A stretch of 22,440 nucleotides of DNA from a virus. The notes beneath the pieces were generated by a model. It worked only from the letters and a program-made list of their open reading frames with translations. It had not been told where the DNA came from and did no database searches. Of the stretch, positions 5,237-20,008 are shown piece after piece (the first letter of the stretch is position 1; each line of letters begins with the position of its first letter). The translations under genes were made by a program, and so were the position numbers. Where the stretch lies: positions 1 through 22,440 of the IMG/VR virus record IMGVR_UViG_3300049893_000455; one strand, 5' to 3'.

Positions 5237-6106
5237 TTACATTATATTCCAAAAGCTACCATCATTACAAAGAATGTAAGCGTCCCCAGAATACAGTGGG
5301 AAGGTCTTCGTTCCCGAGTTGTAAAACAGGAAGTCTGAACCAGCGCCCGAAAGCGTCAGGGTATTGCCCCTGTTTTTGATGAGATACATCCTATCAATTG
5401 AAGACGCAATGCTCGGCATGGTTGCTACACCGCTAGATGCTCCGGTATAGACGTAAAGTGTTCTGATGCCTAATGTGAAAGAGCCGCTAGAACTAGACGA
5501 ACCCACCGAAAGATTTTCACCCACCCGAAGACTTTGCGAGAAATTTCCAGAACCATTAACATCAAGGGTGTAATTGGGAGATTCTGTTTTGATACCAATG
5601 TTGTAATAGGGAGCGGTATTGATGAAAAAAAGAGGGTATGAATTACCCTGCTGCACTGAAAACGCTGGTTGAACCCCATCAGATTTTATCAAAACCATCG
5701 CATATCCTATATTGGGATAGCCCATTGTAATAGTTTGAGAAGTAAGCGTGCCGCTGATGCCGTTCACAAAACTTTTGACACCGCTAACAGTTTGATTTCC
5801 AGTAAGAAGGACTATGTTGCTAGTAGTGCTTACGTATCCGCTCGGGTTAGTTCGTGGATAATAGGTAGAATTGATGTATGCGTTGTTTTGCGCGATGGAA
5901 CCATCAATATCTGTCTGGGTAGAAAAATCTCCAGACTTCGCATAGTTCTGGGGATTGGAGTTCAGGGGATAGAAGGCCCCGGTTAGCTTGCCTGTCGGCG
6001 CTACAACCGTATTTACATTCGCAAGAATTCCAGAAGTGACTTGGGAACAGTAACCAGAAATTTCCGACTGGCTGATTTGTTTTAACCTGATTGTAGAGTC
6101 TGGCAT
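5237..6106 (-). CDS. Tail-fibre-like protein, 289 aa
   Basis: The N-terminus MPDSTIRLKQISQSEISGY closely matches that of the 823-aa fibre at 17537-20008 (MADSTIRVRQLNAAELTGF). This suggests a common attachment module. A region of FYP/YYP repeats follows (FYPLNSNPQNY, then YYPRTNPSGY), and then LLTGNQTVSGVKSF, which is shared with the fibre at 1117-2439. The middle contains YTLDVNGSGNFSQSLRVGENLSVG-type beta repeats (shown in part: TLDVNGSGNFS), typical of fibre shafts. The end (MYLIKNRGNTLTLSG ... DAYILCNDGSFWNIM) resembles the C-terminal tip of fibre proteins in environmental phages. No enzyme domain is seen. The gene is the second after the capsid terminator and overlaps nothing upstream. 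Confidence 0.88.
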   Translation of the reverse strand: MPDSTIRLKQISQSEISGYCSQVTSGILANVNTVVAPTGKLTGAFYPLNSNPQNYAKSGDFSTQTDIDGSIAQNNAYINSTYYPRTNPSGYVSTTSNIVLLTGNQTVSGVKSFVNGISGTLTSQTITMGYPNIGYAMVLIKSDGVQPAFSVQQGNSYPLFFINTAPYYNIGIKTESPNYTLDVNGSGNFSQSLRVGENLSVGSSSSSGSFTLGIRTLYVYTGASSGVATMPSIASSIDRMYLIKNRGNTLTLSGAGSDFLFYNSGTKTFPLYSGDAYILCNDGSFWNIM

Positions 6107-10001: not shown

Positions 10002-11834
10002 TTAACATCCAACAACGCCATAAGGACAAGGAACAGACCAAGATATGCGAGTATTGAAAATTGGGTATTGTTGTGCAAATAGGTCGTTGTAGTCAGCATT
10101 ACCATGCCCGGTAATAATTGCCCCAGTAGAGCTATTTACTATGGTTTCACCCGTTTGGATTCCCGGTATGAAAACGGGCGGAGATGCATTTGAAATCCCT
10201 GATAAAACCGAATCAAAAAATGGAATCAAATTATCCTTATCTCCACCGAATGCGGAAACCCCGTAAGCGATGTCCTTATATCCAGCTACGAAGCTTCGGC
10301 ATTTCAAGCTGGTTCCTCCTTGATAATTGGTGAACTCGTGGGAGTATCCAACAGCACCGCTTCTAGCCGAGGTGCTTACATAAAGGAGTAGATTGGTAAC
10401 GGAAGATTTGTTGGCTTTGTATATCCTAGAATTCATGGCGGTCGTTGAAGTGACATCATTAACGTCCGGCCCGAATCCCTGATTTTTTCTGATGTTGAAA
10501 TAGTTTGGGTGTTTAGACCAATACAAAGAGTCCTCAATTGACTCGTTATTGTGATTACGGAACGGCATTACGCCGCTGCTGGAAACTTGAATTTCCTTCA
10601 AATAACCCAAGTCTTCCCAGTAGGTTATGTCAGTCAAAAAATGGCCAGAAGATGGATTTGGATAGATGTATCTGTATGAGCTACTTCCGCTTGATAGAAT
10701 GTCTCCTTCGGAGAAGACAATATCCATGTATCCTTCCTGCCAAATATTCCAAGGCGCATAATGCCCAGTATCAGAAAAATTGCCTCCGGTTGGACTGACC
10801 AAAAATTGAAGATTGTCCTCGGATAGATAAACTTCCACGTTCTGGTTTTGAGAGTCGTTTGTTAGAAAGAAATTCGATGGTTCGAGCGGAGCGCCCCAAG
10901 GAGGGACGAAAGATTCTCCGTATTCATAATCAAACGTATAGGGATGATATGAATTACCAAACGAATAATCAAAATGCTGTAATCGAAGATTGTCGTTGGG
11001 CGCTTTTGGATACGGGTAAGTTCCATCGTTAATCAACATTACGCCGGGATTAGTAATAGAGTGGTAAAGGCGAATACTTTCATTCCAATTAGGATTACCA
11101 TCGGGACGAGAATAGGGAAGATAAGAAAATCCGAGGCCCGTATTGACGATGACATTCAACCGATAAGTAACGACCAGAATTTCTCCAGTGTTCATTGAGA
11201 ACGTATTCAGGACTCTTGCGAAAGCGGGCGTTGCCTCGCACATTCCAAGGCGCTTTATCTGATTTACTGTTCGGTATCTTCCAGTGACCCAACGATAATA
11301 TTCTGATGTCGAAGAACAGTCTTTTCCCGTTGCATAATCGTCGTATTCGTCGCACGAACAAAACTTTACTCCCCCTAGTCCAGTGACATAAGGACGCCCC
11401 GGCGAAACCATGAACTCATTAAAAGTAATCGGCGTTGTAAAAAATCCCGTGTTGTCTGGCAGAATCCATTGGCGTAATAGGCTTACTCCATTTTCATTGT
11501 TAACGTATCCGCAGCCAGCATCAAATTCACCGGGTCTAGTATAGTATGAAGAGTCTTTGGTTGAATCCCAAGTAGGTCTTCCCCCGACGTAGAGGAAATT
11601 ACTAATTGGGCTATCCAATCCCGTAGTCGGCGGATTTTCGATTGTGTTTGACGCTATTCCATTCCCGACACTCAAGAACCGGAAGCAGTCAGCGAACGCA
11701 AAGTGATATGGATACATCACACCAGTATTGGTAATGAAGTTATCCACATAATCTGACGAACGTATCAATTGGCCATCTTTATGATATACGTCAAATTTGA
11801 ACTGGCCTTGTAGTTTAAGGGCCGCGTGCGCCAT
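10002..11834 (-). CDS. Large structural protein of unknown function, paralogue of the 932-aa neighbour (610 aa)
   Basis: The protein is aromatic and Gly/Ser/Asn-rich and has no recognised domain. It is clearly related to the preceding gene product at 11838-14636. Both share FKFDVY/YKFDLY near residue 15, YPYHFAFADCFRFLSVGNG (41-59 here), FMVSPG (141-146 here), SFVPPWGAPLEP (308-319) and YLSEDNLQFLVS (336-347). There is no signal peptide or membrane segment. The start has a strong GGAGGTTAATCT leader, whose GGAGG is also the last codons of the upstream gene; the two are 3 bases apart. Cysteines are unusually frequent in the first 200 residues (for example FCSCDEYDDY, KDCSS). A fibre, whisker or other virion appendage is a reasonable inference from position and composition. 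Confidence 0.85.
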   Translation of the reverse strand: MAHAALKLQGQFKFDVYHKDGQLIRSSDYVDNFITNTGVMYPYHFAFADCFRFLSVGNGIASNTIENPPTTGLDSPISNFLYVGGRPTWDSTKDSSYYTRPGEFDAGCGYVNNENGVSLLRQWILPDNTGFFTTPITFNEFMVSPGRPYVTGLGGVKFCSCDEYDDYATGKDCSSTSEYYRWVTGRYRTVNQIKRLGMCEATPAFARVLNTFSMNTGEILVVTYRLNVIVNTGLGFSYLPYSRPDGNPNWNESIRLYHSITNPGVMLINDGTYPYPKAPNDNLRLQHFDYSFGNSYHPYTFDYEYGESFVPPWGAPLEPSNFFLTNDSQNQNVEVYLSEDNLQFLVSPTGGNFSDTGHYAPWNIWQEGYMDIVFSEGDILSSGSSSYRYIYPNPSSGHFLTDITYWEDLGYLKEIQVSSSGVMPFRNHNNESIEDSLYWSKHPNYFNIRKNQGFGPDVNDVTSTTAMNSRIYKANKSSVTNLLLYVSTSARSGAVGYSHEFTNYQGGTSLKCRSFVAGYKDIAYGVSAFGGDKDNLIPFFDSVLSGISNASPPVFIPGIQTGETIVNSSTGAIITGHGNADYNDLFAQQYPIFNTRISWSVPCPYGVVGC

Positions 11835-11837
11835 AGA

Positions 11838-14636
11838 TTAACCTCCAGACCAGATGAAGTCGCAGAACATCTGCAATCCGTTCTCCATACTCAATCCGGG
11901 GAATGAGCCGCCTCTCACTGGTGAATAGTAATTGATTTCTTGGTTGTTTGGATAAGCGTAATTTGGGAGCAATCTGCGTCCCGTGCCATTCCAAGATTCG
12001 ACGTGGCGGATTACGCCGGAAGGGCTTCTCCATCGTGTAGGAACAATGCGAAACCCACCAGCAGAATTCAAAATACTAACAGAGCCATACAGTCCATCTG
12101 GACAATATCCCAACAAAACTCCGCCCGCCACATTAGAATCCCAACCGACGTGAGAACTAGCTCCGCTCCAAGAAAATCCAGTAATATCACCATACGACCA
12201 AGTTTTGCCGATTCCCCTACTAAGAGCAAGGTTCGTTGGGTCAATTCCAGTAACAGCGATATATCCGTTTTCTTCTCCCGTTAGAAGACCAGCAAGTATT
12301 CCCGAGTTTCCAAGAAGGCTTTTCATCACTATTCCAGTCATGTCCAAAGACGATGAATATGATGACGGAATTAAACCATTCGAGCTATAAGTTCCATTTG
12401 AGTAAGAAACGTCTTCACTTCCCAAAAACCATTTGGTATAATTAACGTCATTTTCTGGAACATTTACCTTATCTCCTGCTCCCAGAGGGGAACCCGTATA
12501 GGTAAAGTCCTGAGCGACTTGATAAACTCCATTGGAATAGAAATTCGCAGAATCTGAATAAGAACCATATCCTTTAAGATAATATCCCAAGCCAGTGATT
12601 CTTAACCCCAGCCCGCTTCCACTGTATGGCCAGAAAATTCGGGAAGTTTCTCCAGTTTCATTTGGATAACTTGAAACTCCAGAATCTCCACTAAATCCAG
12701 AAAAAAGTTGCCCATACCACCCTTGATTATCAATCAAACAACAATCCATCTTGTTCAAATAAAATCCAGTATCTGCAACAACGCCATAAACGCATCCCCA
12801 CCCAGTTCCCTCGTTTTCTGTCGTGCTTCCACTATTGGAAGTGGACGGAATTACTCCACCAAAAACATAACCAGATGGATAATAAGAATTGCCGATTTGG
12901 ATATTGTCTGTAAACATGGGATGAGAAACATCCAATCCAGACGGCGTATTCGGATTGTCGGAATCAACTCCCGGCCCCATGAATCCGTAGATTGTATGGA
13001 ATCGGTTAATTGAGTCTGGTCTTCCGCCATCCGCGCCTGTAATATCAAATCTTACAGAAGCAATGCCACTTCCCCGATTCGTTAGATAAATTTCTGGAAT
13101 CAAGCGGTAGTGCGGCATATTTGCCGCTCGGCCAGAATTATCGAAGAACAAGAAGTCAATGTATGGCTGCAAGGTCATTTCACCGATTTCTCCAGCAGAA
13201 CTAAGATATGCCAAAACCAACGAGGCATAGCGGCTGTTGGTTCCCATGCTGTTGATTGGAGAAAAATAGGCCGTGCGCGAGACTCTCTTAGACCTTTGTG
13301 GTGTTCCTCCAATGCCAGTTGGAGAATTCAATCCACTATTCGGTAAAGTTCTGAGATATGTTGAGAAAACGGCTCTCTGTCCGTAATCTGGCGCATTTGA
13401 ATCAAATCCATTTTTGCCCCTCGTCGCATAGGAAACTGGCCACCTGCTCAAGTTGGGAGAAACGTATCCCAAAGTCTGATATGTATAGTTTACTGGGTCG
13501 AGATTTGTCGCATAATCTCTGATAGAAATAAGATTTTCCAATCGAATATTGGTGGGTGTTGCTACAGTAACAACACTGGTTGATTCCTCTTGGGATTGAC
13601 CAGAGTAATACCATTTATCCGGCTCAGTTGGCCAATCGTTTTCCCTATCTGAATGGATATACGCTCCACCAGTTGCGAGTTTTGAATAGTTGCCCATCAA
13701 TCCATCCGAATTATAGGCTCCTGATTCAGTTGTCGGGGCGACACCATTATCGCTTACCGCAAACTGAGAATTGTCTGGTGATAGATAGAAATAAAGCTTC
13801 TTGCATTGGCGATATTTAGGCTCCATCTGGTCGCCCCAAGCGGGAATAAAACTCGAACCGAGTGCGTCAACCATTTGAAGACCCGGCAAGACTTGACGAT
13901 AAATACCGCTGCAATTTGCCCATTCATAAAGCATTCCCGTTTCTGAGCCGTTGACACCCGTTGCGGCGTTTCCTGTATAGAACCATCCATTTCCGTCATT
14001 CTTGCCAGAGAAGAACGTTCTGTTTTTGAAGTTTTGGAAGTTAAGGCTTAGTTGATAGAAAATGGTGGCAGTAAATCCACTTGGCAAAGTAACTGTGCGG
14101 TCTGCAATACTAAAGGCCCCTCTTCCTGTTATGTCTGAACCGCTTCCCGGCGAAACCATGAAAGAAGTAATGGTGATTGTCTGGTTGGAGACGGTTCCAT
14201 TCTCGATTGCGCCAGTCGGGATTGTCCATCCACGATAAAGGCTGATTCCTTGGTCGGTGAATTTGCTTCCACATGAAGAAGATTGGGCATTTGAATATGT
14301 CTCGTCGTGAGGGCCGCCGATTTCATATCCTTGCCATCCAATATACTGCCCGCTTTGAGCGCCGATTCCAACATATCCATTCGATACTTGGAATCCGGTA
14401 AGAGGAAATCTAAGGCCCGTTCCCGTTTGATTGTTCGCGTGAGTAGAGCCAGTTCCAAGAGACAAAAATTTGAAGCAATCAGCAAAAGAATAGACGTAAG
14501 GGTAATTCAAGCCAGAGCAGGTGATGTCGTTGTCGAACCATTCTGTTGATTCGACTAGCCTTCTTTCGGCTCCTCTTCCGCTATACAAGTCAAACTTGTA
14601 TGAGCCTTTTAATTCGCATTGTATGCTTGAATTCAT
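11838..14636 (-). CDS. Very large structural protein of unknown function, 932 aa (paralogue of next gene)
   Basis: This is the longest gene in the window. The product is Gly/Ser/Asn/Tyr-rich, with no enzyme motif, signal peptide or membrane segment. Shared landmarks with the 610-aa protein are YKFDLY (13-18), YPYVYSFADCFKFLSLGTG (45-63), FMVSPG (159-164), SFIPAWGDQMEP (262-273) and YLSPDNSQFAVS (284-295). The second half has little counterpart in the shorter protein and holds many TG/SG turns (SGLGLRITGLGYYLKGYG, DMTGIVMKS, AVTGIDP, GDITGFSWSG). The start follows AAGGAAAAAG and, further up, the motif GTGTAATTA. A virion appendage such as a head or tail fibre is inferred from location between portal and protease genes and from composition. 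Confidence 0.85.
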   Translation of the reverse strand: MNSSIQCELKGSYKFDLYSGRGAERRLVESTEWFDNDITCSGLNYPYVYSFADCFKFLSLGTGSTHANNQTGTGLRFPLTGFQVSNGYVGIGAQSGQYIGWQGYEIGGPHDETYSNAQSSSCGSKFTDQGISLYRGWTIPTGAIENGTVSNQTITITSFMVSPGSGSDITGRGAFSIADRTVTLPSGFTATIFYQLSLNFQNFKNRTFFSGKNDGNGWFYTGNAATGVNGSETGMLYEWANCSGIYRQVLPGLQMVDALGSSFIPAWGDQMEPKYRQCKKLYFYLSPDNSQFAVSDNGVAPTTESGAYNSDGLMGNYSKLATGGAYIHSDRENDWPTEPDKWYYSGQSQEESTSVVTVATPTNIRLENLISIRDYATNLDPVNYTYQTLGYVSPNLSRWPVSYATRGKNGFDSNAPDYGQRAVFSTYLRTLPNSGLNSPTGIGGTPQRSKRVSRTAYFSPINSMGTNSRYASLVLAYLSSAGEIGEMTLQPYIDFLFFDNSGRAANMPHYRLIPEIYLTNRGSGIASVRFDITGADGGRPDSINRFHTIYGFMGPGVDSDNPNTPSGLDVSHPMFTDNIQIGNSYYPSGYVFGGVIPSTSNSGSTTENEGTGWGCVYGVVADTGFYLNKMDCCLIDNQGWYGQLFSGFSGDSGVSSYPNETGETSRIFWPYSGSGLGLRITGLGYYLKGYGSYSDSANFYSNGVYQVAQDFTYTGSPLGAGDKVNVPENDVNYTKWFLGSEDVSYSNGTYSSNGLIPSSYSSSLDMTGIVMKSLLGNSGILAGLLTGEENGYIAVTGIDPTNLALSRGIGKTWSYGDITGFSWSGASSHVGWDSNVAGGVLLGYCPDGLYGSVSILNSAGGFRIVPTRWRSPSGVIRHVESWNGTGRRLLPNYAYPNNQEINYYSPVRGGSFPGLSMENGLQMFCDFIWSGG
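11840..11846 (-). promoter_or_regulatory. Strong ribosome binding site of the 610-aa gene
   Basis: GGAGGTT lies inside the last codons and stop of the upstream gene, with GGAGG 7 bases from the ATG. It fixes the start at 11834 and allows independent initiation on the downstream paralogue, arguing against a frameshift fusion of the two genes. Confidence 0.75.
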
Positions 14637-14650
14637 CTTTTTCCTTTTGA

Positions 14651-14659
14651 TAATTACAC
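14651..14659 (-). promoter_or_regulatory. GTGTAATTA motif upstream of the 932-aa gene
   Basis: Minus strand GTGTAATTA lies 14 bases before the start codon and contains the stop (TAA) of the repeat-protein gene, whose last codon is GTG. Because coding constraint explains part of it, this copy is weaker evidence than the purely intergenic ones. Confidence 0.3.
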
Positions 14660-15415
14660 TACCCTGCTGCTAAATGAACCGATTTTGTAATTTAAGTCGC
14701 ATTCATCGTCAAAAATCCCTGTCACTATTATTCTATTGAGTCCCAGAGAAAACTCTGGTATCGAATAATCTAAATTGCAGGAATCTGTCATGGTGGGAAT
14801 GAATTTCCCACTCAGTTTCATGTTTAAGATACCTCTTTCTGCGTTACCGCTCGTAATGCTTCCTGAAATATAGCAGCGAACATTCGGCCTTTCTGGTAAG
14901 CCGTTTATCAATTCGCCAGAAATAATCAGGGTAAATTGGTTCACGTCTGGCGCGCAACCAGAAACTACTCCCGACAAAACAACGTCAATGGGCGAGCTAT
15001 CTTTGGGAGCGCCAGAAAACATTCCCGAAAGGATAACCTGATTTGATTCTTCATCAAGGACTCTGGGATAAAAAGAACCCGAAATTTTCGTCTCCGCGAA
15101 GTCCGAATCTTTTCCTCCTTCAAATCTTCCAGAAAGAATGACGAACGCCGTCCCAGCCCTTAGTCCTGTTGAGAATTCGCTTTCGGTATATGAATCACAG
15201 AAAAGGCTGACTCGGTATCCGGCCCCTAGACCTTCGTAAATTTCCTCTGGGATTGTTCTGCCTGCGTATGGAAATTGCCACATCTGGTCAGAGACGCGAC
15301 CAATCCTTCCTCCACTAGCGGGGACTTCTGACTGTCCATACGTTCCACGAGTAGGAATAACGCCAGTGTTCGGCTGCTGAAAAAAGTTAAATAAATTTAG
15401 GGTTCCAAATGACAT
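14654..15415 (-). CDS. Repeat protein with an 18-residue SG repeat, 253 aa
   Basis: The first 87 residues are non-repetitive (MSFGTLNLFNFFQQPN, QMWQFPYAGRTIPEEIYEGL). From residue 91 on, the sequence is a tandem repeat with the core hydrophobic-x-x-[IL]-S-G-x-[FVLI]. The SG pairs fall at 95, 112, 130, 148, 166, 184 and 202, so the spacing is 17 and then exactly 18 five times. A last degenerate copy (IIVTGIF) lies at 229. Examples are VILSGRF, TKISGSF, VILSGMF, VVLSGVV, LIISGEL, CYISGSI and MKLSGKF. This suggests stacked beta strands or a short solenoid. The ATG directly abuts the portal stop (TAAATG), so translation is coupled to the portal. No known function is recognised; a portal-associated or fibre-base component is inference. 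Confidence 0.85.
   Translation of the reverse strand: MSFGTLNLFNFFQQPNTGVIPTRGTYGQSEVPASGGRIGRVSDQMWQFPYAGRTIPEEIYEGLGAGYRVSLFCDSYTESEFSTGLRAGTAFVILSGRFEGGKDSDFAETKISGSFYPRVLDEESNQVILSGMFSGAPKDSSPIDVVLSGVVSGCAPDVNQFTLIISGELINGLPERPNVRCYISGSITSGNAERGILNMKLSGKFIPTMTDSCNLDYSIPEFSLGLNRIIVTGIFDDECDLNYKIGSFSSRVV
15062..15143 (-). repeat. Part of the 18-residue protein repeat (first copies)
   Basis: This stretch encodes the first copies of the SG repeat in the 253-aa protein. The repeat is obvious in protein but not in DNA, so the copies are old or under selection at protein level only. The repeat array continues to about 14718. Confidence 0.6.
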
Positions 15416-17527
15416 TTACTGCCTTCTGCTTGAGTAAAGCAGGGCGGCAACATGATTATCAAGTTGGTGTTCCGCAGCCACACCCAAGACTTTGTTAACA
15501 CGACTCTGCTTTTGGTCAACTGGGTTCTCGCAATACGCCTCAACCGAACTCTTCCAATCCGAAGGCTCTTCGTTGGCTACGATTACCGTCATAATTTCAG
15601 AAGCAATAGAAAGTTGCTCGGGCGTCAATTTCTTGACCTTGTATTTCTTCTTGAGGTATGTCGCGACATCCTTTTCAACATCCTGCGCGAGAATCATATT
15701 GTCTCGTAGTGCAGACAGGCTAAATTCCATTTTCGGAGCTTCCTCACTACCCTTACTTCCCATCGGAGAAATTTTCTTCGTGCCTTGTGGGACTCCTGTA
15801 GAGCCTTGTGGGCGGCCCTTGCCATTTTGACCAGCCTCCGCCGCCCCGCCCTTTCCTGCTCCGACGAGAGGTTGATACAATCCCTTGTCTCTGGCTTCCT
15901 TGTATTTAATTTGGGCGGACTCCATATCTTCTGGTTCTGGAAGCTCGTTATCTTGGATGGCGATAAGCCCCTGCTCTGGAGTCAGGACGCCAATATCAAC
16001 CAAGTGACTGTAAATCTTGGAATCCGATACGATGTCCCTGAACTGGTTTTCATCGTAGTATGGCTGTGGGCATACCCTGAAATTCAGAGACTTGGCAATA
16101 CGCTTCATTTCGGGCCATAGGAAATGATGAATGAAGGCTTCCTTGGCCTGCTGCAATCTCTTAATGAACACATCAATCTTCTTAGCTTGGTTGGCGAACT
16201 TTTCGCCTCCCGTTCCGAAGAAAATGTTGTTCAATCCGATATTGATGTCGCGGTCAATCACTTCATACTTGCGCGGGTCAAGCAATTCAGCAATCTTCGG
16301 AACAATGAATTCTGCCTTGGTTGTATAGTCAGCAATCAGGACGCGGCCAACCGATTGATTGGTAAACAAAGCCTTGAGGGTATCAAGGTTTTTCTGGTTA
16401 ATTCCGCCCTTTTCAGGCTCGGTTCCAGCAGTAACAAGCAGAACAATTTGCTGCATTGTGCGGGTAATCGCCATGTCAATGCGGCGCATTTCAATCTTCG
16501 CATTGATGTCTTCAAGGACGGGATAACCCATAGGGACAGCAAACGGCTCGTAGTCTTGCTTTTTGTAGAAGATGATTTTGACCTTCTTGGTGTCGAGCGG
16601 GATATACACGCTGCGAATACCAGCCTTGATTTGGTCTTGGGTAAACTTGGGAAGGGAATTAAACACTTCAATGTCTTCTTCTGTTTGCAGGTTCCTCAAT
16701 CTCGAAACTTCGTATTCAGTCAATATCTTGTAGTAAATTCCGTATGAGAAATTGGCTGTTCCGAGCATGTTGATGTCGGCTGGGTTTAGGATGATGTAGC
16801 GCGCAGGCATCATCATAGGCTCGATTTCGAGTTTTACTGGCGCATCTTGATTAAGAGGATTGCCCTTGCCATTAGGCCCCTTGCCCGTCGGGTATCCCAT
16901 TTGCTGATTTTGGTCTAGGACGGGGTCGCCAATCAATGTTGATTTTCCTGATGGAGAAGTAGGATTCCAATCGGCTGCCATGCTTTGAGAAAGGCGGCGA
17001 ATATCATTCGGCTTGACTTCAGCATCAAATCTGTAAACGAAAACGTTTCCAGAGCGGTAGTATTCACGGAAAAACTTATCCTGCAAGTCCCAGATGTTGA
17101 TTTTGTCAAAAAGGGCCTTGAAGAAAGCGCGGCTTTGTTTCGTGCCTCCACGATAACGAATTTCATCAATCGAAAATTCAGTCATCAAATCAATGATATT
17201 GCGGAAAAGAGCGAAGTTGTAATAGCATTTTTGACACAGAATTACCGCGTCACGAATATCAACCGTTGACTTGTTTGGGCCGTAAATCGCATTTGAATTC
17301 CTGAATGGAACTAGGCCGTTATCAATGTTCGCAAAGCGGTCTGTCCGCTCAATACTTCCGGCAGCATCGCGGCGAGACAGAGTATCTCCGCGCTCTGAGG
17401 CTTCAGACACCATCTCTGGCAAAACGCTCTTGGCTTTCGAGGCGCGTTTGGTCGCTTTCAATGACGAACCGCTCTGCGCTCCGGTCATTTGCACTTCTGG
17501 CATCTTTTTCTTGTTTTTCCTCTTCAT
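15416..17527 (-). CDS. Portal protein, 703 aa
   Basis: The portal forms the dodecameric DNA entry channel at one capsid vertex and docks the terminase. Supporting features are the amphipathic start of the core (YYNFALFRNIIDLMTEFSI, 102-120), FFREYYRSGNVFVYRF (152-167), PARYIILNPADINML (241-255), a helix-rich clip/stem region with RRIDMAITRTMQQIVLL, and DRDINIGLNNIFFGTGGE followed by a long helix ending WPEMKRIAKSLNFRVCP. VLTPEQGLIAIQDNELPEPE is also typical of portals. The basic N-terminus (KRKNKKK) and a Gly/Gln/Lys insert at about 190-230 look disordered. A flexible Gly/Lys linker (556-600) leads to an extra helical C-terminal domain (601-703). The leader AAAAAGACTTT contains no GGAGG. It abuts the repeat protein gene downstream. 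Confidence 0.94.
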   Translation of the reverse strand: MKRKNKKKMPEVQMTGAQSGSSLKATKRASKAKSVLPEMVSEASERGDTLSRRDAAGSIERTDRFANIDNGLVPFRNSNAIYGPNKSTVDIRDAVILCQKCYYNFALFRNIIDLMTEFSIDEIRYRGGTKQSRAFFKALFDKINIWDLQDKFFREYYRSGNVFVYRFDAEVKPNDIRRLSQSMAADWNPTSPSGKSTLIGDPVLDQNQQMGYPTGKGPNGKGNPLNQDAPVKLEIEPMMMPARYIILNPADINMLGTANFSYGIYYKILTEYEVSRLRNLQTEEDIEVFNSLPKFTQDQIKAGIRSVYIPLDTKKVKIIFYKKQDYEPFAVPMGYPVLEDINAKIEMRRIDMAITRTMQQIVLLVTAGTEPEKGGINQKNLDTLKALFTNQSVGRVLIADYTTKAEFIVPKIAELLDPRKYEVIDRDINIGLNNIFFGTGGEKFANQAKKIDVFIKRLQQAKEAFIHHFLWPEMKRIAKSLNFRVCPQPYYDENQFRDIVSDSKIYSHLVDIGVLTPEQGLIAIQDNELPEPEDMESAQIKYKEARDKGLYQPLVGAGKGGAAEAGQNGKGRPQGSTGVPQGTKKISPMGSKGSEEAPKMEFSLSALRDNMILAQDVEKDVATYLKKKYKVKKLTPEQLSIASEIMTVIVANEEPSDWKSSVEAYCENPVDQKQSRVNKVLGVAAEHQLDNHVAALLYSSRRQ

Positions 17528-17536
17528 AAAGTCTTT

Positions 17537-20008
17537 TTAGATATAGCGATACGGATTAGAATACGTTCCGAAGCAGGACAATCCTCCTTCATCTGGAAAC
17601 CTCAATATTGTATAAACGTAGGCTTCTTTGTCGTTTGGACGCGTATAGGTATCCATCGGCCATTTTATCTGGCTGCTGTTAATTACACCAACCCCATCAA
17701 AATAAAACAAGGGCGGATTGTCATTTCCATAAGGAATGCCACTGTTTCGGATTTTGAGAATTAAGGATTGGCCAGTTTGGACTCCACTCCAATTGAAATC
17801 AATCGTCGCAGCCTGCATTCCGTATGGCTGAATCCCGTTTCCCGTAATCATCACGCAAAAACAATCAATACCCGTTCCACCAGTTATGTTAACGCCCGTG
17901 GGGTTAAGTATCAAGCTGGCTCCGGTGGAAATGGTGTATGTCTGTGTTCTCATTGCGGAGGCCGCACCGGGCGCTCCTTGAATACCTTGAATTCCTTGGA
18001 TTCCCTGCGCGCCACTCATCACATTTGCGCCAAGATTGATTGTTGCGTTATTCCAATTCCACCAAGAGAAATAACCGCCAGACACAGTAACGTTATTGAT
18101 GCCTGTTCCTCCAGACGGCGAGAAGGCTAAAATGCCACTGTTTCTATCGAAAGAAACGACTGTAGCGTAGCAATATGTTCCAGTGTATGAATTGGTGGAA
18201 AGGACGATTTGTTGGTATGGCGTGAAGGAATACCCGCTCAATCCAGAATTCCTAAAAGCAACCGCGTCGTTAATCCTAAATCGAGAACCTGTTCCGCTGA
18301 CGTTAACTCCATTAACCGTCAATCCAGTTATTCCAACCCCAAATGTTCCAGCGCCAGTTGGGTATCCAGAAACAACCAAGAAAGATGAACTATACCTATC
18401 GGCTACTCCTGTGGCGCCAGTCGGGCCTACGTCTCCTGCCTTCGCGAGCATCTGCCAATAAGTCGTATTTGTAACTGGCTGTCCTGCGGCTGGCGTTCCA
18501 AAAACATAAACATAGGAAGAGCCACTGTTGGAAACAGTATCATTTTGAGAATAAGTTGTAGAGGGAGAATACTCACCGCTAAAATAATTTGTCAGACCGC
18601 CCTTGGCTCCAGAAGGGCCAGCTACACCAGAAGGGCCGCCGCTTGGCATATCAATCCAAGGCCCAATATTTCCATCGGAGAAAATGAATTGAAGTTGGTA
18701 TTGGTTTGGCCCGACAACCTTTTCAACATAGTTGACAACACTCGCGCCTACATCTCCCGATGGCCCCTGAATCCCGACGCCGGGAATACCTTGAATCCCC
18801 GGATTTCCTTGGGGGCCGATTGGCCCAACTGGGCCTACGCCAGAAGAAAAATATACATCTCCTAAAACATAAGCGCGCCCGGTGCTGATAGAGGCTAGGT
18901 TTACATCAAGCGAAGTATCTCCACCGATGGTATAAACCATGAAACCATACTTGTAATGGTTTTGGGCGGTAAATCCAGCCATCAGAGAAAAGGATGTCCG
19001 ATAAAGATTGGGAGCGCCGATGTCTCGGTAAACTTCAAAATTACTTGCTTCATCAAATACTTGGCCTCCCATTCCAAGTTGAGAATAGTATCCAGTTGCA
19101 GTATTCGATGGGAAGAAGGAGAATCTCCAATATCCAGTGTCGTTTCCTGATGTATAGTAATTGACTTGGTCGTTCTCATTCCAAGGAGGGACTTGTCCTC
19201 CAGTAAAGATGAGACTGAAATTTGCCAAGTCCTGAGCGGTAATTGTATGGGTATGAAGACCACTGGCGTCAACATCGTAAATCATTCCCCTCATCATTGA
19301 GATGGTCGGGGCGCGCTCGCTAACGTAGTATGGGTCAATGGTCGGGACACTTGGGAAATTCGTTCCTTGAGGCTCTACATCTGAACCAGACTTCTCGAAA
19401 TAAAAGTGGATGCTTCCCGGCGCTCCTTGAGGCCCAGCGGGAAGATTTATTCCTTCTCCAGTCCCCCTATAATGGTCAAACTGTGGATAAATTACAGCGC
19501 CGCTTTGAAAAAAACCAGTTACCGATACACCAGTATCTCCACTCAATCCTTGGAAGTTGAAGCTGTTCGAGCCTCCATTGGAATAGTAGAAAGTCAGGAT
19601 GTGAGAATTTGTATTGTAAGTAGCTCCAGTGACCCCGACGCCGCTTACGCCAGTTGGCCCTTGAACACCGCTCGGCCCCTGTTTTCCGCTTGGCCCAGCG
19701 ATGTAAATGGAATCTCCCGAGGAAGATATTGTGACTCCACCGACGCTTACATAGGCAAATCCACCAGAATTATAGGCCCTGAAGAAAGATGGGCCGAAAT
19801 TGATTCCGCTCCCAGATGGAAGATTGAGTTGATTGACGTAGATTTGGGAATACGGATAAGAGGAAGACCCTAGATTTGCTACTCCAGAGCCAGAGGGAAT
19901 AATGCTTCCTGTGACTGTCGTTTTAGGATAAGCATTGATAACGCCAGACACAAAACCCGTAAGTTCTGCGGCGTTTAATTGCCTTACCCTAATTGTTGAA
20001 TCAGCCAT
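17537..20008 (-). CDS. Large collagen-like fibre protein with carbohydrate-binding-like module, 823 aa
   Basis: The N-terminus (MADSTIRVRQLNAAELTGF) matches that of the 289-aa fibre at 5237-6106 and probably serves as attachment module. Then come GVANLGSSSYPYSQIYVNQL (43-62), typical of fibre proteins, and six short collagen-like Gly-x-y tracts: about 105-124, 192-199, 392-422, 458-471, 525-535 and 666-681. Between them lie globular or beta parts, including residues 474-522 (EYSPSTTYSQNDTVSNSGSS, then TYWQMLA). This fits the small carbohydrate-binding module (CBM5/12-like) often inserted in phage fibres. The C-terminus (IKWPMDTYTRPNDKEAYVYT) resembles fibre tips. Host surface binding is inferred. 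The gene lies between terminase and portal, which is unusual. Start at ATG 20008 is preceded by CGGAG 20 bases upstream and by GTGTAATTA. Confidence 0.9.
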   Translation of the reverse strand: MADSTIRVRQLNAAELTGFVSGVINAYPKTTVTGSIIPSGSGVANLGSSSYPYSQIYVNQLNLPSGSGINFGPSFFRAYNSGGFAYVSVGGVTISSSGDSIYIAGPSGKQGPSGVQGPTGVSGVGVTGATYNTNSHILTFYYSNGGSNSFNFQGLSGDTGVSVTGFFQSGAVIYPQFDHYRGTGEGINLPAGPQGAPGSIHFYFEKSGSDVEPQGTNFPSVPTIDPYYVSERAPTISMMRGMIYDVDASGLHTHTITAQDLANFSLIFTGGQVPPWNENDQVNYYTSGNDTGYWRFSFFPSNTATGYYSQLGMGGQVFDEASNFEVYRDIGAPNLYRTSFSLMAGFTAQNHYKYGFMVYTIGGDTSLDVNLASISTGRAYVLGDVYFSSGVGPVGPIGPQGNPGIQGIPGVGIQGPSGDVGASVVNYVEKVVGPNQYQLQFIFSDGNIGPWIDMPSGGPSGVAGPSGAKGGLTNYFSGEYSPSTTYSQNDTVSNSGSSYVYVFGTPAAGQPVTNTTYWQMLAKAGDVGPTGATGVADRYSSSFLVVSGYPTGAGTFGVGITGLTVNGVNVSGTGSRFRINDAVAFRNSGLSGYSFTPYQQIVLSTNSYTGTYCYATVVSFDRNSGILAFSPSGGTGINNVTVSGGYFSWWNWNNATINLGANVMSGAQGIQGIQGIQGAPGAASAMRTQTYTISTGASLILNPTGVNITGGTGIDCFCVMITGNGIQPYGMQAATIDFNWSGVQTGQSLILKIRNSGIPYGNDNPPLFYFDGVGVINSSQIKWPMDTYTRPNDKEAYVYTILRFPDEGGLSCFGTYSNPYRYI

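Follow-up and report, generated by a model that had tools for sequence, protein, structure and literature searches.

A phage protein family with seven 18-residue Ser-Gly repeats, a possible component of a virion appendage module

Introduction

Repeats of 18 residues are found in the left-handed β-helix, where three hexapeptide repeats make one coil, and in the RTX β-roll, which has 18 residues per turn. Known fibre shafts often vary in their number of repeats, and intertwined fibres typically cause structure prediction from the monomer to fail. Among viral stalks, the triple β-spiral has 17 residues per 15 Å (PMC7565637), and the Orsay virus delta fibre forms a pentameric β-bracelet of five-residue strands and three-residue loops (PMC7565637). 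Here we describe a protein with an 18-residue Ser-Gly (SG) repeat encoded in the window, the whole 22,440-base stretch of an IMG/VR virus record that was analysed. We tentatively propose, at a little less than even confidence, that it forms a structural part of a fibre or spike module, appended to the virion, in one clade of uncultured tailed phages.

The SG-repeat gene

The SG-repeat protein (P0001, 253 aa) is encoded on the minus strand at 15415..14654, with its ATG at 15413-15415 and its stop at 14654-14656, an assignment based on the open frame, its relatives and dN/dS. The plus strand across 14654..15415 contains many stops. SG pairs are present at 11 positions in the protein (residues 34, 95, 112, 130, 134, 148, 152, 166, 184, 189 and 202). 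The original prediction named seven of these (95, 112, 130, 148, 166, 184 and 202), all of them correctly, and the five spacings of exactly 18 residues that it reported were confirmed along 112-130-148-166-184-202, with 17 residues separating 95 from 112; the pairs at 34, 134, 152 and 189 were absent from it. When the sequence was shuffled 100,000 times with all 11 SG tokens kept, the longest run of spacing 18 was three as opposed to the five observed, and a run of five at any period between 5 and 40 appeared in 1 of the 100,000 shuffles. Five consecutive 18-residue spacings are far beyond what chance would give. The flanking pattern first described for the seven pairs held in part: Ile or Leu is found directly before the pair and a hydrophobic residue two after it in seven of seven, while the hydrophobic residue expected at −2 is found in only five, with Lys at residues 110 and 200.

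Relatives were gathered by protein and portal searches of IMG/VR, giving 17 further distinct complete proteins at about 20–38% identity to the window protein and two incomplete ones (L106 and L107) whose contigs end inside the gene. Looking for the repeat beside portal genes in other phages had been suggested as a check, and all 17 complete relatives carry it there, with one ORF in between in L174. The seven repeats (residues 86-211 in the window protein; 14783..15160, minus strand) are found in nearly the same register in all 18 complete members, with an occasional one-residue shift, and SG-SG distances over 17 members include 71 pairs at 18 residues compared with 12 at 17 and 3 at 19. From the 126 units of the 18 proteins we derived the consensus h-x-h-x-h-S-G-x-h-x-[GPS]-x-x-x-D, with hydrophobic residues (h) at −5, −3, −1 and +3, Gly, Pro or Ser at +5 and Asp at +9. 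Position −1 is hydrophobic in 93% of units, Ser is present in 86%, Gly in 98%, a hydrophobic residue at +3 in 96% and Asp at +9 in 56%.

Conservation and selection

Outside the repeats, the best conserved region is the N-terminal motif MSFGTxxLFNFFQQPNTG (residues 1-18; 15362..15415, minus strand), a proposed docking peptide with a mean majority fraction of 0.87, and a motif of the same kind is still present in remote members. A second conserved box at residues 39-52 (15260..15301, minus strand; 0.79) reads G-x-V-A-D-F-N-W-x-F-P-Y in relatives, as compared with 0.40–0.47 in the variable regions. The C-terminal region, defined from the alignment (residues 212-253; 14657..14782, minus strand), contains two NIxYxF-like stretches. 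Inside the repeats the SG columns are conserved at 0.96 and the non-anchor columns at 0.39, and conservation there is limited to structural positions. Close pairs that were tested gave dN/dS values of 0.12–0.38, indicating purifying selection, and therefore the SG-repeat protein is real and selected.

The length of the protein is 230–265 aa over the 18 complete members, a coefficient of variation (CV) of 0.035 that is close to that of the portal protein (0.036) and far below those of two neighbouring fibre-like proteins of 932 aa (0.179) and 610 aa (0.107). Identity between the window and the relative L002 is 72–81% for portal, TerL, cement and major capsid proteins, 60% for the protease, 45–50% for the fibre neighbours and 36% for the SG-repeat protein, making it the least conserved and fastest evolving of the genes compared in this block, although its length varies no more than that of the portal protein. 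Such a combination of fast divergence and fixed length fits a structural element built of repeats, constant in size but with a surface that is free to change.

The repeat itself appears to be confined to this family. A three-repeat profile searched against the ORFs of the loci collected by then matched SG-repeat proteins only, and no SG repeats were found by it in the neighbouring fibre proteins. Searches with the 932-aa protein and two remote SG-repeat proteins returned no clearly new family members, and when other ORFs were searched for the N-terminal motif, all matches were out of place.

Database searches and fold prediction

The original prediction did not recognise the repeat as a named family, and this was borne out, with no convincing match in Pfam, PHROGs, NCBIfam or PDB. 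Profile matches in Pfam, PHROGs and NCBIfam included no family common to more than one SG-repeat protein and no named PHROGs connector family. Three groups of database matches were rejected. Those to coronavirus spike in the PDB depend on one short segment, with domain E values of at least 7.9 in the two alignments shown, and are due to chance; helicase matches in phage records (E at least 0.7) were likewise due to chance; and a match of the three-repeat profile to designed pentatricopeptide proteins (PDB, E 2.6e-6) is an artefact, being the sum of many 2-bit hits from a 15-residue coincidence with a 35-residue helical repeat. No match to the portal or major capsid protein was found in 50,697 phage records, and nothing was found in the literature on an 18-residue phage repeat or on this fibre module. 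The family is restricted to one phage clade and is undescribed in the literature and databases searched. The tailed phages that carry it are part of a large uncultured group with almost no relatives among sequenced isolates.

Hydrophobic residues at the alternate positions −5, −3, −1 and +3 form the pattern of a β-strand across the 126 units. AlphaFold2 (AF2) gave models unusable as such, with a mean pLDDT of 35.6 for the window protein (18 sequences) and 41.4 for the repeat region of the relative L010, although the low-confidence window model has strands at 108-112, 125-130, 143-148, 161-166 and 179-184, which match the register of five of the seven repeats. Failure of the monomer prediction is not evidence for an intertwined fibre since shallow alignments also give it. 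Foldseek returned nothing significant with these models (pLDDT 36–41) and is uninterpretable at such confidence.

From these data we built the following tentative picture of a fibre-module component. The conserved 18-residue N-terminus would dock the protein, presumably part of the virion, to the particle or to a partner fibre; each repeat would contribute one β-strand (about −5 to +4 around the SG pair) and a loop; and the seven repeats, probably of several chains in an oligomer, would stack into a rigid β-stalk or solenoid whose length is fixed, with the C-terminal ~42 residues as a distal or capping domain. At 17 residues per 15 Å, a stalk of 126 residues would be ~110 Å long. Counting against a stalk, the number of repeats is fixed, unlike that of many fibre shafts, and a fold that is closed or capped would agree with this as well.

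It is possible, though we consider it unlikely, that the protein is instead a monomeric parallel β-solenoid with 18 residues per turn, which would decorate the head or act as a spike or receptor-binding surface and not as an oligomeric stalk. A short β-solenoid was also among the folds first suggested. The exact 18-residue period and the fixed number of turns would suit this, and most Foldseek matches of the low-confidence model are left-handed β-helices, but with E values of at least 2.3 and probabilities of at most 0.04. The repeat also departs from the hexapeptide pattern of left-handed β-helices, and monomeric solenoids are often predicted above a pLDDT of 36–41, which counts against a monomer.

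Gene neighbourhood and co-inheritance

In favour of a fibre-module component, two fibre neighbours of the SG-repeat gene match tail-fibre PHROGs. The first encodes a collagen-like fibre protein of 823 aa (17537..20008, minus strand; phrog_5073 tail fibre, 9.6e-16) and is present in all SG loci, and the second encodes the 610-aa protein (10002..11834, minus strand; phrog_4176 tail fibre, 1.5e-4), present in those loci long enough to show it. The 932-aa fibre-like protein (11838..14636, minus strand), with an N-terminus like that of the 610-aa protein, is again in all SG loci. Against such a component, no sequence link was found between the SG-repeat protein itself and any fibre family, and its repeats are absent from the neighbouring fibres. 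As far as the contigs reach, SG loci follow the order TerL, 823-aa fibre, portal, SG-repeat, 932-aa, 610-aa, protease/scaffold, cement and major capsid, with L174 carrying one extra ORF in this otherwise common order. The 703-aa protein encoded at 15416..17527 (minus strand) is provisionally named the portal from a weak match to phrog_16240 (portal, E 0.063) and gene order, its homologues forming a large IMG/VR family located between TerL and the protease, cement and major capsid genes.

Portal similarity was used to sample sister phages, of which nine had their layout compared gene by gene; neither the SG-repeat gene nor the 823-, 932- and 610-aa genes were found in those nine loci. The four that were examined further have other ORFs between portal and protease, including small lipoprotein-like ORFs, and in L023 this interval has a pesticin/T4-lysozyme-like gene (Pfam E 1.1e-8). 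In the portal tree all SG phages fall in one clade with support of 100/99. The only row in that clade labelled as lacking the gene, L107, comes from a contig that ends 87 bases past the portal, and before the end an SG-type N-terminus, MPFPLNFYQ, begins in the position of the SG-repeat gene. The gene is inherited together with the three fibre-like genes.

Co-inheritance of this kind could also be expected of an assembly factor outside the virion, such as a fibre-folding chaperone or an antiparallel β-barrel acting on the co-inherited fibres, and a closed barrel would suit the fixed number of repeats. We consider this quite improbable, as the protein has no similarity to known fibre-assembly families and its repeats lack the even/odd alternation of an antiparallel meander, their similarity being 0.22 at distance 1 and −0.05 at distance 2.

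Two further features of these genomes were observed. An N-terminal module, I-R-x-K/R-Q-x-N/S-x-x-E-L-x-G-F/Y, is common to otherwise different fibre-like proteins (window 17537-20008 and 5237-6106, both minus strand; L012:11885-12292; L018:11916-12659; L040:11838-12596) and is probably a common docking peptide. On the 124-kb contig of a relative (G001; L189:18746-19477) there is a pseudopilin-like gene whose product has DUF1559 and a methylation motif at its N-terminus, features typical of Planctomycetota/Verrucomicrobiota and a hint at the host.

The position after the portal gene

The SG-repeat ATG abuts the portal stop (15416-15418) with zero gap, as originally described, and in all complete members but L174 the gene directly follows the portal with a gap of −17 to +12 nt (L007 is listed at −44, or about +1 at a better start). 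In L174 a 188-aa ORF (L174:5376-5942) with a CxCxCG-type motif and no Pfam match intervenes, and resembles a mobile insert of the homing type. Neighbouring genes across this block are mostly separated by no more than a few tens of bases, and since tight packing is ordinary here, the abutment does not show stoichiometric coupling. With variable gaps and the L174 insert as well, the earlier proposal of production matched to the portal is unsupported.

The same position was surveyed in related phages using the 79 distinct ORFs that begin within 60 nt after the portal. These comprise 28 fibre-like ORFs, 26 of a ~400-aa family, 17 with the SG repeat, 6 in a tubulin group and 2 that stand alone, and the slot appears to be filled by one of four unrelated families (SG-repeat, fibre-like, ~400-aa tail-like or tubulin). 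A tubulin/FtsZ-like gene directly follows a portal of the same family at L052:2175-3362, L048:4755-5891, L077:3028-4173 and L130:6731-7903. Three members of the group that were tested match Pfam Tubulin (3.1e-14, 1.5e-9 and 2.2e-13), one of them also matching TubZ-like_C below its cut-off, and the L130 ORF was placed in the group by clustering. The SG-bearing 124-kb contig yielded no counterpart of the tubulin gene. The ~400-aa tail-like family, which is common behind the portal in sister phages, occurs as two adjacent copies at L109:10583-13050, L027:13583-16050 and L142:13074-15541. Since this slot is shared out among unrelated families, a gene's function is poorly predicted by its place beside the portal gene; the portal link of the SG-repeat gene is positional and says little about what the protein does.

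Genes of 168, 147, 189 and 183 aa follow the capsid genes in L012, and their counterparts in the SG-bearing G001, which have no PHROGs or Pfam match, lie shortly before the tape-measure gene. By position only, these are likely connector genes, kept with or without the SG-repeat gene. A ring or adaptor located at the portal vertex, with its synthesis matched to that of the portal, as first suggested, would suit the adjacency and the portal-like constancy of length, but it is very doubtful given the unrelated families in the slot (tubulin included), the ORF that intervenes in L174, the likely connector genes conserved elsewhere in both clades and a rate of evolution, the fastest of the block, unlike that expected of a portal-contacting ring.

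Comparison with known systems

Returning to the fibre-module component, we compared the SG repeat with the four described systems. The RTX β-roll shares its 18-residue period, Gly and Asp, but RTX repeats are tandem GGxGxDxUx nonapeptides whereas the SG consensus has no GG and no second nonapeptide, and HemolysinCabind did not turn up when 17 members were compared with Pfam at E ≤ 1. The left-handed β-helix has the same period per coil, and here the hydrophobic fraction of the SG repeat is 0.93 at −1, 0.02 at +5 and 0.37 at −7, out of keeping with a hexapeptide pattern. The Orsay virus delta fibre likewise repeats a short β-strand and loop along its stalk, as predicted for the SG-repeat protein, with the difference that the SG repeat is 18 residues long.

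It is also possible, although we hold it to be an unlikely outcome, that the SG unit is a new viral β-fibre/solenoid motif with a geometry of its own and the protein a fixed seven-repeat spacer by which the virion holds a fibre complex specific to the clade. Should the repeat of this undescribed family fold into a stalk, the viral β-fibre motifs would gain one of unusually fixed length. The triple β-spiral shafts of adenovirus fibre and reovirus sigma1 share with it a similar repeat length and alternating hydrophobic residues. Their repeat is a pair of antiparallel strands joined by a Gly/Pro turn within a homotrimer, and they dock on the virion through an N-terminal peptide, features for which the SG-repeat protein has possible counterparts in its own turn residues and N-terminus. 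Gly, Pro or Ser at +5 together with the alternating hydrophobics are compatible with the triple β-spiral pattern, the AF2 confidence being too low to give strand order. Unlike these shafts, the SG-repeat protein has no PDB sequence match, places Ser-Gly inside a hydrophobic stretch, carries Asp at +9 and keeps a fixed number of repeats.
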